Positions 8,106-20,280 of a stretch of DNA of 22,593 nt are shown one piece after another (positions within the stretch are counted from its first letter, which is position 1; every line of letters begins with the position of its first letter). Source of the DNA: a virus; IMG/VR virus record IMGVR_UViG_3300044729_002666, positions 1 through 22,593 of that record; one strand, written 5' to 3'. Made by a program: the position numbers and the translations under genes. A model generated the notes under the pieces. It was given only the letters and a program-made list of their open reading frames with translations, did no database searches and was not told where the DNA came from.

Positions 8106-8584
8106 TAGAACGACAGCACGCAGGGCGTCCCGCTCAATTTTGTAGTCGCAATTCTAGGTGGAATTGTGGCAACCACTGGCGGCAGGGTGCTACTGGCAGA
8201 GAATGAGATCCCGGTCAGTGTGCCACCACCGCCGCTGATGGCGAGCAATGCTGAGTCGTCCCGGATCAGGCCACCAAGGACGATTCGATATTGGGTCACC
8301 TGAATCAACCACTGCCCCGCCACTGCCTGCAACACCAAGGCCAGGGTGGCGGGGGAATGGGCGCAGGTGATTGTGACCGATGCTGCTACCAGGCCCGAAT
8401 CAAAGCCCGGGCAGTTGAACTCTTGATACCGCCAAGCCTGGGGCCCGTCGCCGTCGCCCGCATCCCAGCTGCTGAACGGAGGACTGTTCGGCAGGTCAAG
8501 CCGGTGCCAGCGGGCCCGCGCCACGCCGGAAGGGTCCAACCATTTGAGGGTCTGGGTCCAGAAGTAGGGGCCCGTCGCGGTCAT
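8105..8584 (-). CDS. Minor tail protein (distal tail region)
   Basis: The 159-aa product lies between the tape measure and tail-tip genes and joins both through ATGA and TAATG overlaps. It is beta-rich, with WLIQVTQYRIVLGG near the middle and IPPRIATTKL near the end. Position suggests a distal tail or tip adaptor protein, as lambda gpM/gpL occupy the same slot. I do not recognise a specific family, and no membrane or signal segment is present. Confidence 0.6.
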   Translation of the reverse strand: MTATGPYFWTQTLKWLDPSGVARARWHRLDLPNSPPFSSWDAGDGDGPQAWRYQEFNCPGFDSGLVAASVTITCAHSPATLALVLQAVAGQWLIQVTQYRIVLGGLIRDDSALLAISGGGGTLTGISFSASSTLPPVVATIPPRIATTKLSGTPCVLSF

Positions 8585-10407
8585 CAGGCCATCCCCAGGG
8601 CTTTGCGCCCGTCATAGCTCTGGATGTGAGCCCAGAGCTGGCCAACGCCATCGCTCACCATGGCCTCGGCATCCTCGCGCCGGATCCACTGGGAGCCGTC
8701 GGGCTGCTGCTGGACTGGGCCGGTTTGAACCTGGATCGTTGGGGCGAAGGTGCCGCCTCTGGAGCCCCCTCCAGCAGCGGCGCCGCCCGTGGCAGAGCGA
8801 GGGGCCGACCGATGCAGATCGATGACTTGCTCTTCAGGATGCAGCATGGCCATAAATCCGCCCTGCCCATCGAGGCCGCCAGACCGGGGGCCGTGGCCGG
8901 TGAATCCGCCGCCGGCAAACTGGGGCACATTCACGGGTTGGATCATCCCCAACTGCGGACCCCGCACGGCGGCGCTCACCGAATTGGCCGCGGCGATCAG
9001 GCGGTTGATCTGCTCGATGAAGGCATTGACCGCCCGCCCCGCCAGGGTCAGGGCCGAATTGATCACGCCTTTCACCGTGCCAACGATCGACTCCCAGGCA
9101 TCGGTGATGGGCTGCACCAGGCCCACGGCGTAAACCCGCATCGAATCCATAGCCTGGTTCCAGGTTTGCCCCAGGCGGGCAATTAGGCCGTTCTCTGGGC
9201 CGATGATCGTGTCGATGAAAGCGGTCCAGTTGTCGCCCAGGTTGGTGAGGATGTTGCCGGCATAGCTGCTGATGCCGTCCATCATCAGGTTCCAGCCGCC
9301 GCCGATCATTGCAACAAACCCGGTGGTGGGGTTGGCGATCAGATCCCAGAGCTCCCGGAAGGCATCGGCGATCTGGTCGCGGAATGAAAACAGCACCACC
9401 GCCGTGGCCACGGCTGCTGCGCCGATCAGCACCGGGGCAGTCACGAACGCGGCAACCAGGGCAGCCAGGCCGGTCGCTACTGGCACAATCGCGCCGGCCC
9501 AGCCAGCGAGGGTGGCGCCAATGCCCAGGCCGGCAAGGGCACCCAGCACCGTTACCACGCTGGTGATGATGGGGGCCAGCAGGGTAAAGCCCACGGCCAA
9601 CAGCGCCACACCGCCGACCGCTGCCTGTATCGGGCCTGGCAGCATTGTGAAGGCATCAATCACCGCAGTCAGCGCCGTGGCTGTTGCATCCAGCGCAGGC
9701 AGCAAAGCCACGGTCAGTCCAGCGGCAAGACCGCCGACCTTCCCGCCAAGCATCGCCAACTTATCGTTATACTCATCCGCCTTTTTAGCGAATGCCGCCG
9801 TCATCTTTACGCTTAATGATTCGATGGCTTTGCCGCCTTCGTTCAGCATTGGAATCATATCCGCGCCTGACTTGCCAAACAACTGCATCGCTAAAGCTGT
9901 TTTTTCTATGCCGTCTGGCATAGTCTTAAACTTGTTTGCTATCTCTAGCGTTACCTGATCCGCCGTCTTGAGCTTACCGGCTGCATCTGTTGCGCTGATG
10001 CCCAAGGTCTGCAGTGCTTCAGATGCCGGACCCTTGCCGGTTTGTGCGGTTTCGTAAAGACCCTTGCTGAGCTTGACAAGCGATTTGGCGACCGCATCGA
10101 TATCAGTTCCTGAGGTCGCCGCTGCCTTCCTGAACCTGGCCAATGACTCAACGCTGACGCCGGTGCGCTGGCTCATGTCGTTCATTGAGTCGCCTAGTTC
10201 AATCGTCCTGCCCACCAGCGCCCCCAGCCCGCCAATCGTTGCGATCGGGGCCAGGGCCCCCAAGGCACCGCTCAATGGGCCGAGGTTGCTGGTGAGCGAC
10301 TGCGTGGCACCTTCTACCTGTTTAAAAGTTGAGCCGAGCTTGGCGACTTGCTCGGTGCCGACAACCTGGGCGGCAATCTTGAGGATTGCGGCAAAGTTGA
10401 CGGCCAT
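8584..10407 (-). CDS. Tape measure protein
   Basis: This is the longest tail-module gene before the tip, with typical tape-measure layout: an N-terminal helical region (VGTEQVAKLGSTFKQVEG), a DMSQRTGVSVESLARF motif near residue 77 that is common in this family, a long hydrophobic Ala/Gly/Val/Leu-rich block (about 225-345), further amphipathic helices, then FAGGGFTGHG...LHPEE (about 497-527), a signature found near the C-terminus of many tape measures. It acts as a scaffold setting tail length and may help DNA passage into the cell. At roughly 1.5 Å per residue, 607 aa would predict a tail near 90 nm. It follows the chaperone pair as expected. Confidence 0.9.
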   Translation of the reverse strand: MAVNFAAILKIAAQVVGTEQVAKLGSTFKQVEGATQSLTSNLGPLSGALGALAPIATIGGLGALVGRTIELGDSMNDMSQRTGVSVESLARFRKAAATSGTDIDAVAKSLVKLSKGLYETAQTGKGPASEALQTLGISATDAAGKLKTADQVTLEIANKFKTMPDGIEKTALAMQLFGKSGADMIPMLNEGGKAIESLSVKMTAAFAKKADEYNDKLAMLGGKVGGLAAGLTVALLPALDATATALTAVIDAFTMLPGPIQAAVGGVALLAVGFTLLAPIITSVVTVLGALAGLGIGATLAGWAGAIVPVATGLAALVAAFVTAPVLIGAAAVATAVVLFSFRDQIADAFRELWDLIANPTTGFVAMIGGGWNLMMDGISSYAGNILTNLGDNWTAFIDTIIGPENGLIARLGQTWNQAMDSMRVYAVGLVQPITDAWESIVGTVKGVINSALTLAGRAVNAFIEQINRLIAAANSVSAAVRGPQLGMIQPVNVPQFAGGGFTGHGPRSGGLDGQGGFMAMLHPEEQVIDLHRSAPRSATGGAAAGGGSRGGTFAPTIQVQTGPVQQQPDGSQWIRREDAEAMVSDGVGQLWAHIQSYDGRKALGMA

Positions 10408-10775
10408 CAGAAGCCCCTCTCTAGTAGTAGAAACTCGTGCTCGATCACTGCAAGGTCATCCATGATCGCGTCAACGCGCCGACGGCGCCAAGTCAGAAGG
10501 GCCCGCTGTATTACCGCTTCGTGGATAAGACCTGTCCGCATCAGCTGCGGGTATCCGTCTGGGGTGTAGCCCGTGGCCCAGTGCCATTGAGTGGGGGCCA
10601 CCTTGCACCAGAGCGAGAAGGCGTCCATGTTCTCGGGCCATATCCGGCAGATCGGCTCAGCAGGTTCTGGGCGATCCTCGCGGGGCTGGGGCACGTAAAC
10701 AATGCCCATGGCCTCGGCCGCCCGGCGCTGTCCAGCGTCCTCCTGCTCCCGTGTTTTGGTTGGCGCCTGGGTCAT
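10407..10775 (-). CDS. Tail assembly chaperone, downstream frame (gpT-like, DUF1799 type)
   Basis: The 122-aa frame lies between the first chaperone and the tape measure, where gpT-type extensions are found. ICRIWPENMDAFSLW and a following QWHW resemble the WPEN...QWR pattern of DUF1799 phage proteins, with a GLIHEAV segment after it. ATG 10775 overlaps the upstream stop (ATGA), so it could be started separately. The same frame is also open for 13 codons upstream of this ATG, back to the slippery site at 10814-10820, so a -1 frameshift would give a fused protein of about 271 aa. Its stop overlaps the tape measure start. Confidence 0.7.
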   Translation of the reverse strand: MTQAPTKTREQEDAGQRRAAEAMGIVYVPQPREDRPEPAEPICRIWPENMDAFSLWCKVAPTQWHWATGYTPDGYPQLMRTGLIHEAVIQRALLTWRRRRVDAIMDDLAVIEHEFLLLERGF

Positions 10776-11221
10776 TTGCCGATGCCATTCCCTCGCGATT
10801 TCCCTGAGGTTGGCTTTTTTCCGGTTTCAGGTGCGGTAGATTCTGTCCAGGCATCAGCAATCGCCTGGGCCATTCCTGGAAATTGAATTACTTTTCTCTT
10901 TGAATCTTCGTCAAACTCCCACGGCTTCCCGTCGTAAAGCATGTCTTCATCCCATCCTTGCAACACGCGATTAGCAATATGAACATAGTCAACTGATTGC
11001 ACGCCCCTGGCTGCGCTGGGCGGCTCCCTGCCGTCTTCAATTGCCACCACCACGGCCCGGTAGTGCCTGATTGCTTCGTTTAGTTCTTGAATTTCTGTCT
11101 GCTCCATCCTTTCAAAAAACGCGGTAAACGTTATGTCCCGTCGCGTTCCATCTTTCAGTGTGACGTTATGCTTTACTTCCGCTTTAAAAATGTCGCCTAT
11201 TTCGTAAAAATCAAAAGCCAT
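10772..11221 (-). CDS. Tail assembly chaperone, upstream frame (gpG-like)
   Basis: The 149-aa protein sits right after the major tail protein. It has the chaperone-type layout: an N-terminal beta part (VKHNVTLKDGTRRDITF), helices with ERMEQTEIQELNEAI, an NRVLQGWDE segment and a C-terminal helix (FPGMAQAIADAW). These proteins coat the tape measure during tail assembly and are not in the finished tail. The last 15 codons follow a GGA AAA AAG stretch, so ribosomes may slip into the downstream frame there. No clear ribosome-binding site precedes ATG 11221. Confidence 0.75.
   Translation of the reverse strand: MAFDFYEIGDIFKAEVKHNVTLKDGTRRDITFTAFFERMEQTEIQELNEAIRHYRAVVVAIEDGREPPSAARGVQSVDYVHIANRVLQGWDEDMLYDGKPWEFDEDSKRKVIQFPGMAQAIADAWTESTAPETGKKPTSGKSRGNGIGK
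10814..10820 (-). promoter_or_regulatory. Programmed -1 ribosomal frameshift site A AAA AAG
   Basis: On the - strand the codons GGA AAA AAG (135 and 136 of the upstream chaperone frame are AAA AAG) contain A AAA AAG in the correct phase for a -1 slip, the same heptamer as in E. coli dnaX. The -1 frame has a TGA at 10829-10827 and is open after that, and the zero frame stops at 10774-10772. The slip site lies at the start of the 50-odd bases where shifting can work. A weak CCTC/GAGG stem follows 4 bases later. Frameshifting between tail chaperones is established for lambda G/T and many siphoviruses. Confidence 0.8.
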
Positions 11222-11263: not shown

Positions 11264-12208
11264 TCAGGTCTGAACAACCGTCAGCTCTTGGTTGGCCGCT
11301 TCGGCAACCATCCGCCCCTGAAGCTGGATGTAATTACTATCCTTGACATTAACAAGGCTGGGCATTACCTGAACTTGTGGCAGGTTGAAGGTGTTGATGT
11401 TGCCAGCCACCGTGCCGACTGGAAGCACCAAGGCACCTAACTGAGAGTTGGAGGCATTGGTAAATACGTCCAGTGTTTCAATTGTCGGACGGGCAATCGT
11501 GAGGCTAAAGGTTACAATCCGGTCGGTAAAATCAATATGAGGCACGCACCCGGCATTGTCGTAATACTGGGTGATATTTTCAATGGTCAGTTCAAACGCC
11601 TCTACGCAAACCCCAACACCGGCAAACGTCAGCGAGCCCGGTGTAGTGCTGGACGAATCGAACGGCACCGAATTGGCCAGTGGCGCCGGATAGCTCGGGG
11701 TTGGGTTGGCAACGGTTGCAGGGGGGCGGTAGAGGCCCATGTAGCTGGCAACGGCGCTCAATGGTTGCCCAGCCTGGCCGCTGATTACCAGCTTGCTGAC
11801 TCGCCCGCCAGCAGCAGAGTACACCACGCCATCGCGGTGAAACCGTGCGGTGTGGGTGGTCGCCGGCGGTGGCCAGGCCAGGGCGTAGCTCACACTGCCG
11901 CTGGCCCCGGCAACCACGCTGGAATTAAACCCAGCAGCCAGCATCACCGGATTGAGGGCCGAGATCGCGCCACGGGTGCCCGAACCCGCAAACTCAAACG
12001 GGATGTCAGCGGAAACCTTGCGCTCGGTGATCGCCGCCGCTCGCTGCGCACCAGGGCGAGCGCCTAGCTGTGTTCGCTCAACCTCGACCCAGTCAGCCAC
12101 ATTGGGATCAAACGAGCCGCAAGGGATCGCGTTAGCCCCGGTCAGCGTTACCGCTGTGCCGGGGGTTGTTTCAGGGCCCAGCAGTAAAATTTGATCGCGG
12201 TAGGGCAT
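11264..12208 (-). CDS. Major tail (tube) protein
   Basis: The 314-aa protein lies between the tail terminator-like gene and the chaperones, the standard slot for the tube subunit. The N-terminus contains a long beta-rich region with a VEVERTQLGARPGAQ segment, then ADIPFEFAGSGTRG, ALNPVMLAAGF and a middle beta region. This resembles tail tube proteins in which a charged GA(K/R)PG segment precedes the E-x-x-G-S-G stretch. The strong ribosome-binding site at 12217-12221 fits a protein needed in many copies. No Ig-like extra domain is obvious, though the size exceeds lambda gpV (246 aa). Confidence 0.82.
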   Translation of the reverse strand: MPYRDQILLLGPETTPGTAVTLTGANAIPCGSFDPNVADWVEVERTQLGARPGAQRAAAITERKVSADIPFEFAGSGTRGAISALNPVMLAAGFNSSVVAGASGSVSYALAWPPPATTHTARFHRDGVVYSAAGGRVSKLVISGQAGQPLSAVASYMGLYRPPATVANPTPSYPAPLANSVPFDSSSTTPGSLTFAGVGVCVEAFELTIENITQYYDNAGCVPHIDFTDRIVTFSLTIARPTIETLDVFTNASNSQLGALVLPVGTVAGNINTFNLPQVQVMPSLVNVKDSNYIQLQGRMVAEAANQELTVVQT

Positions 12209-18126: not shown

Positions 18127-20280
18127 TCAATCAACTCCGGTAGAGCGATAGATAAATCGATAGTCGCTAAGCGTGCAACCCCAATACATGCGAAACAGAA
18201 ATTCCAGGCAGTCGGGATTTCGTTTAGTTTCGGTAGTAAGGGTTGGGCCGCTTTCGCCTTGAAGATACCCTTGAACAATTCCCTTAGAGGCTGTTTTTGC
18301 TGCCATAACGTACCACTGAAGTGCGCTAGCGCTATCAAGCCGAGCAGAATAAATGTCTTCGATAGCACCTGAATAAGAAGAAGTTGCAGGCCCGGCATTG
18401 CCTGTAAGCTGTTGAGGCATGTAATTGTTTGGCCTCAGAAATTGCTGCATAGGCCCGCGCAAAGCAGCAGGAGCCAGTGTCAACGCTGGGTCTAGCTCCA
18501 ACGGGTTACCAGCTGGATCCGTTTGCGTAGACAATTTCAGAACAGCATTGTTCCATCCGGTGTTGCCAATGGTTCCGGTTCCAGTGTTGTTATGACTGGC
18601 ATGGAACAATGGCAGGCCATCAATGCCAACGTTTGCGTTGCCAGTAATAAGGCCGTAAATACCTTTAGCTTGAACACGTCGACCGCCTCGGCCAAACATA
18701 TCAGGGACTTCGGCTAGTCCGCTAAGGTCGTCATTGATAAATACCTCTTCAGCAACACGCAGGCCCCGCGTATATTTGCTCAACTGCCAGGTCACTTTCC
18801 CATCTTGAAGAGTGGCGAATTGATATTCACCTCCTTCTATTCGGGCATCCGCTTTGGTCTTGTCGGTTGGTTCGCCATTTACCACCCTGATAGGCTCAAG
18901 ATTGCCAGCGATAAACACCTGATTGGCAGGCTTTAAGTCGGGCAAATCTTGACGAGTTGCGAAAAGCTCCCATCTATGGTTTTCCTCAGCCCATCCGTCC
19001 ATCATTGTCTTGTTGGCAACATTCGCCAGCAAGTTTGTAAAATCGTCGCTGGTATGCAATGCCAACGCAATTAGCTGGTGAGCAGATCGGCCAATTGTGT
19101 TATGCCCTCGGCTTTCAGCAAAAACGCGGGTGATCTCCATCATCCGCATTCCAGCATAAGGCTGGGCCGCGTCGCTCATGGCCTGCTCAGGCCTGATCTT
19201 GGCCCAGATCGCATCCTGCAATCCGGTCATCAGCGTATCCCCCGCGTCGCGGGTTACCTGGATGCGGGCAGGGTGGCCAGCCTTGCTGGCGACGGTTTCA
19301 AGCGGGCCGGCGTGGGCCCTCACAATTTCGAGGGCAACATCGGCAAACGGCCTGCCGCTGTCAACCATGGCTTGCACCGCGTTAGGAGCGATATTGGCCT
19401 CGGCCGCGCAACGGCGGATTTCAATTTCGCGCTGTGCATTGGCAAGGACCACGGCATCCGCAACAGCGGTCGAGGTAACGGGGCTGACGGCGGCCTGCAC
19501 TACTGCAGGGGCAACAGGGGCAGCTTCGGTAGAAGCGACCACGGGAGGCGCTTCGATGACGGCGGCCGGTGCGCTCCCGGCCTGATCTTGCGTGGGCATG
19601 TGTTCAGCTCGGGAGTGTTCAGGGTGATCTCCTGATTCTATTCTAACCATTGACGCCAGGGCCTTAGACACCCACCCTGGAGGGTCTGGAAAGCGTCCCG
19701 CAGGCAACGGCGGGACGCTGGCACGCACATCTACCGGATCGATCACTGCATCAATCAGGCCAGCCGCCAGGGCCGCTTCGGCGGTAAACCAGGTACCACC
19801 CCCTTGCGCCGCGCCCATCCATTCCAAAATCTGTTCGACCGATTGGCCTGATGCCTTGGCATAGGTGGTGGAATAAACCTCGGAGTGAACGCGCAGCATG
19901 GCCGCTGCGGCATCCATCGAATCAGCGTCTCCAACCGATCCGCCCCAGCAGTTATGGATCATCAGCAGGGCGTTGCTTGGCATCAAGCGGCGATCACCCT
20001 TGGCCTTGCTGATGGCCATTGGAACAATCGAGCCGGCAGATGCCACCAAGCCATCCACCACATAATCCTTTCTGCCCTTGTAGGCCGCCAACACGTTATG
20101 GATCGCAATCCCCTCGGCAGCTGCGCCGCCAGGCGAAAACAGGTGAATCTCAACATCACGCCCCCCTGCAGCGTCCAGCGCTCGGGCCACGTCGTCAACC
20201 AACACGTCAACCCCGACTTCGCCATAGAGCCGCAACACTGGGGCAGTGGCGGCGGCTTTAACGGTTACTCCTGGGGCCAT
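18127..20280 (-). CDS. ClpP-like prohead protease fused to major capsid protein
   Basis: The 717-aa product joins two functions. Residues 1-200 are a ClpP/S14-like serine protease: FSPGG (48-52), GLVASAG with nucleophile Ser81, MIHNCWGG with His109 and TWFTAEAALAAGLID (163-177). Residues about 230-345 are Ala/Val/Pro-rich then helical and could act as a built-in scaffold. Residues about 346-717 form an HK97-fold-type major capsid protein of the kind found in protease-capsid fusions, with FTNLLANVANK, RGLRVAEEVFINDD and LPLFHASH. The protease would be expected to cut itself free during prohead maturation. Such fusions are known in annotated prophages. An in-frame ATG at 19599 (Met228) might give a separate capsid product, but it lacks a good ribosome-binding site. 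Confidence 0.88.
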   Translation of the reverse strand: MAPGVTVKAAATAPVLRLYGEVGVDVLVDDVARALDAAGGRDVEIHLFSPGGAAAEGIAIHNVLAAYKGRKDYVVDGLVASAGSIVPMAISKAKGDRRLMPSNALLMIHNCWGGSVGDADSMDAAAAMLRVHSEVYSTTYAKASGQSVEQILEWMGAAQGGGTWFTAEAALAAGLIDAVIDPVDVRASVPPLPAGRFPDPPGWVSKALASMVRIESGDHPEHSRAEHMPTQDQAGSAPAAVIEAPPVVASTEAAPVAPAVVQAAVSPVTSTAVADAVVLANAQREIEIRRCAAEANIAPNAVQAMVDSGRPFADVALEIVRAHAGPLETVASKAGHPARIQVTRDAGDTLMTGLQDAIWAKIRPEQAMSDAAQPYAGMRMMEITRVFAESRGHNTIGRSAHQLIALALHTSDDFTNLLANVANKTMMDGWAEENHRWELFATRQDLPDLKPANQVFIAGNLEPIRVVNGEPTDKTKADARIEGGEYQFATLQDGKVTWQLSKYTRGLRVAEEVFINDDLSGLAEVPDMFGRGGRRVQAKGIYGLITGNANVGIDGLPLFHASHNNTGTGTIGNTGWNNAVLKLSTQTDPAGNPLELDPALTLAPAALRGPMQQFLRPNNYMPQQLTGNAGPATSSYSGAIEDIYSARLDSASALQWYVMAAKTASKGIVQGYLQGESGPTLTTETKRNPDCLEFLFRMYWGCTLSDYRFIYRSTGVD

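Follow-up and report, generated by a model that had tools for sequence, protein, structure and literature searches.

A tail assembly chaperone locus of the lambda G/GT type, probably expressed by programmed −1 ribosomal frameshifting, in cyanophage-like siphoviruses

In phage lambda, gpG attaches to the tape measure protein, and gpGT, a rare product, makes contact with the tail tube protein too; the shift that separates them is low-level, at a few percent, and gives a product ratio of about 30:1 (PMC5009743). The same work covers the shiftiness of A_AAA_AAG and G_GGA_AAG (PMC5009743). Slip sites of tail chaperones have also been described in Caulobacter phages, with AAAAAAC in phiCbK and GGGAAAC in Colossus (PMC3556154). 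A literature search for DUF1799 yielded one genome paper, PMC9658991, in which it is a separate gene beside a tail assembly chaperone, with frameshifting unmentioned. Here we examine a chaperone gene and an overlapping DUF1799 open reading frame (ORF) in a viral DNA of 22,593 nucleotides (IMG/VR record IMGVR_UViG_3300044729_002666), the whole of which is termed the window. Judged from sequence, this locus is very probably a tail assembly chaperone of the lambda G/GT type under programmed −1 ribosomal frameshifting.

Both ORFs of the locus lie on the minus strand and overlap each other, flanked by the genes for the tail tube and tape measure proteins. The features that matter for the proposed shift are:

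10772-11221, minus strand: G-like gene for a tail assembly chaperone (Phage_TAC_4), 149 residues, zero frame (PF08748, E 9.7e-5)
10407-10775, minus strand: T-like ORF, DUF1799, 122 residues from its own ATG, −1 frame (PF08809, E 6.2e-6)
10814-10820, minus strand: slippery heptamer A_AAA_AAG, in phase (read in the sequence; conserved in phase in relatives)
10827-10829, minus strand: stop codon of the −1 frame, TGA, shortly before the slip site (read in the sequence)
10776-10814, minus strand: −1-frame coding stretch from the slip site to the first start codon (ANLREIAREWHRQ), with a predicted helix
10772-10775, minus strand: ATGA, in which the zero-frame stop and the first ATG of the DUF1799 ORF overlap (read in the sequence)

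The zero frame of the chaperone gene reads ..GAA ACC GGA AAA AAG CCA.., which places A AAA AAG in phase for a −1 slip, and it ends at a TGA (10774-10772) located 39 nucleotides past the heptamer. In the −1 frame a TGA (10829-10827) stands two sense codons ahead of the heptamer, and beyond it the frame stays open as far as 10407. The zero-frame stop shares bases with the first ATG (10775-10773) of the DUF1799 ORF. A −1 slip is predicted to yield a fusion of 271 residues. A first-pass annotation of this DNA had described the in-phase heptamer, the −1 stop upstream of it, the open −1 frame, the overlap of ATG and stop and the 271-residue product, and all of these are read in the sequence; the minus strand of the gene, which it had left unstated, is added here. 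Among the 24 listed genes of the window (6775 codons), in-phase A_AAA_AAG is unique to the chaperone gene. None of these genes contains an in-phase G_GGA_AAG, A_AAA_AAC or G_GGA_AAC, and one in-phase A_AAA_AAA is the sole other known slippery type among them.

Relatives were gathered with the two window proteins, an alignment and a pair of DUF1799 queries taken from S-CBS1-like members, and none of the peptide patterns used in the scan spans the heptamer. With the window, the collection comprises 214 loci from 208 distinct records, five contigs and S-CBS1 having been fetched twice; three loci that start past the slip site (L069, L144 and L208) are excluded from the counts. A heptamer stands in phase at the homologous place in 53 of 53 testable loci of the first set and 158 of 158 of the second, and likewise in S-CBS1 and S-CBS3, two Synechococcus phages in culture. 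The first-pass annotation had predicted that related phages would keep a slippery heptamer in phase, and this holds for each of the 208 distinct records that could be tested. A scan of bacterial genomes for DUF1799 returned no relatives.

The site is kept in phase despite low protein identity, and its sequence varies. Over the 214 loci, the heptamer is A_AAA_AAC in 142, A_AAA_AAG in 27, G_GGA_AAG in 23, G_GGA_AAC in 21 and A_AAA_AAA in one. All 61 non-redundant members have an in-phase heptamer, compared with 4.7 expected when the zero-frame peptide is synonymously recoded with local codon usage. Mapped on the tree built from the 61 fusions, heptamer type changes at least eight times, always to another usable slippery form. 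It is the function that is conserved, rather than the sequence. Among the second-set loci, 112 of 158 have the zero-frame stop directly after an A_AAA_AAC heptamer (the A_AAA_AAC members within L094-L253), a placement found at some retroviral gag-pro sites.

Coding in the −1 frame begins at the heptamer. Up to the first start codon, the codons that follow the heptamer spell (A/V)NLxxIAxEW(H/F)RQM for the clade of the window and KKLxxAAEHW for the others; across relatives one leucine is invariant, and one alanine and one tryptophan are conserved at 90% or more. From the preceding −1-frame stop up to the conserved tryptophan, 53 of the 61 non-redundant members, and the window too, have no ATG, GTG or TTG in that frame, and the segment is therefore translatable in these only through a shift. 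AlphaFold predicts a helix at residues 5-17 of the −1 product, with a predicted local distance difference test score (pLDDT) of about 84. The structure alignments omit the S-CBS3 row, and they take S-CBS1 from the viral_contigs copy or omit it. By parsimony, changes at zero-frame codon positions 1/2/3 number 16/25/21 in the overlap versus 298/206/672 elsewhere in the chaperone gene, a departure from ordinary zero-frame coding (p 1.6e-5). The programmed −1 frameshift proposed by the first-pass annotation is upheld by the excess of heptamers in the 61 members and by −1-frame coding ahead of any start codon.

We infer from these features that slipping occurs, at a low percentage, and that its two products have different roles. 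The majority of ribosomes would complete the 149-residue Phage_TAC_4 chaperone. A minority would slip at A_AAA_AAG, each of the two tRNAs moving back by one base to re-pair on AAA AAA, and would continue in the DUF1799 frame to give the 271-residue fusion. If lambda is a guide, the 149-residue form may coat the tape measure protein, and the fusion, which would be rarer, may recruit the tail tube protein. Trypsin would leave peptides too short for detection at the fusion junction, and mass spectrometry would need Glu-C or a similar protease.

The upstream protein matches PF08748 at 23.0 bits (curated cut-off 21.1) and the downstream protein matches PF08809 at 26.8 bits (curated cut-off 26.0). 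PF08748 is matched by 36 of 59 relatives (best E 2.8e-27) and PF08809 by all 60 relatives (best E 1.2e-21). In PHROGs, both window genes (phrog_569 and phrog_680) bear the name ‘tail length tape measure protein’, a label that looks as if it was carried over from the neighbouring gene. Compared with 995 PDB chains, the chaperone model gave matches to 3fgx (Z 4.7), to YqbN (3klu, Z 2.8), which we take to be a prophage tail chaperone-type protein, and to the HK97 chaperone gp13 (2ob9, Z 2.7), all of them weak; the last ranked third, with a root-mean-square deviation of 5.0 and 86 aligned positions. In the BFVD set of predicted viral structures, the match at rank 6 is named a tape measure chaperone, and a Colossus protein is a weak match at rank 13 (E 0.09). 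A tail chaperone fold for the first protein is only suggested by these models.

Several observations weigh against the frameshift interpretation or parts of it. The window has no 3′ hairpin beyond chance downstream of the site (z −0.04; with peptide-preserving recoding z 0.0, rank 0.5) and no upstream Shine-Dalgarno-like element (anti-Shine-Dalgarno pairing energy +0.4 kcal/mol). The DUF1799 model (pLDDT 87.7) finds PDB matches only at noise level, leaving homology to gpT unsupported. The overlap, when read in the −1 frame, also departs from the DUF1799 pattern of change, less strongly (p 0.03); constraint on the two frames at once would produce a departure from both single-frame patterns. The claim that two tail assembly chaperones are fused is retained in part: a Phage_TAC_4 chaperone would receive a DUF1799 extension, and the DUF1799 protein is itself a chaperone only as a candidate. 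Its likely role, which the family gains from this locus, is that of a T-like extension of the tail chaperone.

The two missing elements also bear on efficiency. With neither stimulator of dnaX, the window is more likely to shift at a low, lambda-like level than at the roughly 50% of dnaX. The first-pass description of the heptamer as dnaX-type stands for the site itself, which is the same A_AAA_AAG, but not for its surroundings. Across the family, a candidate upstream Shine-Dalgarno stimulator gave no signal beyond that of synonymous recoding. A CCUC/GAGG pairing, present as a short stem in several members of the AAG type, was rejected, since shuffled sequences equalled it.

A different arrangement is found in members with A_AAA_AAC or G_GGA_AAC (L038 and L089-L253), in which a covarying hairpin starts about six bases past the site. 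Hairpins at or below the 5% level of peptide-preserving recoded sequences are present in 29 of 48 AAC-ending members versus 0 of 12 AAG-ending members (Fisher p 1.4e-4), numbers to be read with the fact that the AAG state arose only once or twice on the tree, so that the 12 and the 48 are non-independent. The pairs covary, with 20 cells changed on both sides, a value reached in 1 of 500 shuffles and higher than in slid controls; the 32 aligned sequences were picked from hairpin-type members, and the percentage paired is therefore biased. The structure in L149, the sole outlying AAG member, is ambiguous. A trade-off of site strength against stimulator is a natural reading. We tentatively suggest, at somewhat less than even chance, that one chaperone family holds its shift efficiency near a set point, with AAG sites acting alone and AAC sites, mostly with a zero-frame stop directly after them, acting with a covarying 3′ hairpin. 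If this trade-off is true, the hosts of these cyanophage-like viruses would support efficient slipping on A_AAA_AAC, which is a weak site in E. coli.

Other routes to the DUF1799 protein can be weighed against the same observations. If it were only ever a separate protein, started at the ATG within ATGA through translational coupling and with no programmed shift, the ATGA overlap of the window and its close relatives, typical of coupled genes, would be accounted for. Such a scheme is nevertheless very improbable, as the −1 frame codes upstream of that ATG in a stretch that no start can reach in 53 of the 61 members, most A_AAA_AAC members have their earliest candidate start well past the heptamer, no good Shine-Dalgarno sequence stands at normal spacing ahead of the ATG, and the in-phase heptamer is left unexplained. 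Less improbable, but still unlikely, is that in the clade of the window a frameshift fusion coexists with a degree of coupled re-initiation at ATGA, so that three products are made. The AAG-type clade does retain ATGA, but the −1 peptide (..RQM) and the zero-frame stop already demand those bases, and a start codon near the junction is missing in the wider family. The downstream-only third form that had been proposed for the window is therefore possible in its clade, where ATGA is found; with most relatives lacking a start near the junction, it is not a conserved family feature.

Polymerase stutter on the A run could also join the frames, and the window site has a run of six A while that of L203 has eight. 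Six is short when known cases of transcriptional slippage have A runs above 7 (PMC3711429), and members with GGGAAAG or GGGAAAC have no long homopolymer at all; we give this explanation even less credence than separate translation from the ATG. L203 (around 2486-2500, GGGAAAAAAAAG) is the sole member with eight A at the site, and transcriptional slippage could be added there. That an assembly or sequencing error has split one gene might be suspected of a lone metagenomic contig, but the arrangement recurs in 208 records, two isolates among them, and zero-frame tails past the site are constant in length within clades. The probability of such an error is negligible, and it is independently excluded.

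Two further tail genes flank the locus of the proposed frameshift:

8584-10407, minus strand: tail tape measure protein gene, directly downstream (phrog_8462, E 7.4e-51)
11264-12208, minus strand: tail tube protein gene, directly upstream (PF18906, E 2.2e-18)

Elsewhere in the window, 18127-20280 is a single ORF with ClpP-type protease and capsid domains (PF00574 and PF25209), a protease-capsid fusion.

A search confined to openly available papers found no published frameshifting for a PF08748/PF08809 pair. On the present interpretation, a pair of genes that have been annotated apart as hypothetical, in a large and mostly uncultured phage group, becomes a single recoded locus. The roughly 200 homologous sites, with four heptamer types and both with and without a hairpin, form a natural set for working out rules of efficiency.

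Homologous pairs in two cultured phages are among the closest known counterparts of the window locus. S-CBS1 gp13/gp14 (L038 2576-3228) and S-CBS3 gp12/gp13 (L039 2468-3177) have an in-phase A_AAA_AAC; they differ from the window in having the zero-frame stop right after the heptamer and a possible 3′ hairpin, clear in S-CBS1 and weaker in S-CBS3. These pairs are annotated as separate hypothetical or phage coding sequences, and the joining −1 segment with its conserved helix is part of neither. The chaperones that precede the tape measure gene in phiCbK and Colossus have heptamers equal to those of distant relatives of the window, whereas the window itself uses AAG. Since AAAAAAC and GGGAAAC are already published (PMC3556154), none of the heptamer types is new. 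E. coli dnaX has the identical A_AAA_AAG, but the window is without its Shine-Dalgarno-like element and 3′ hairpin, and the shift lengthens the protein here and shortens it in dnaX.

The likeness to lambda G/GT extends to position, frames, heptamer and conservation, and lambda's own G_GGA_AAG is used by close relatives of the window. The differences are that the families here are PF08748 and PF08809, that the proteins have no sequence match to the solved lambda or HK97 proteins, and that the window's heptamer is A_AAA_AAG. By its sequence features, the locus joins the lambda G/GT class, in cyanophage-like siphoviruses. The device itself is familiar; what this analysis adds is a large comparative set with turnover at the site, and a link between heptamer type and hairpin.
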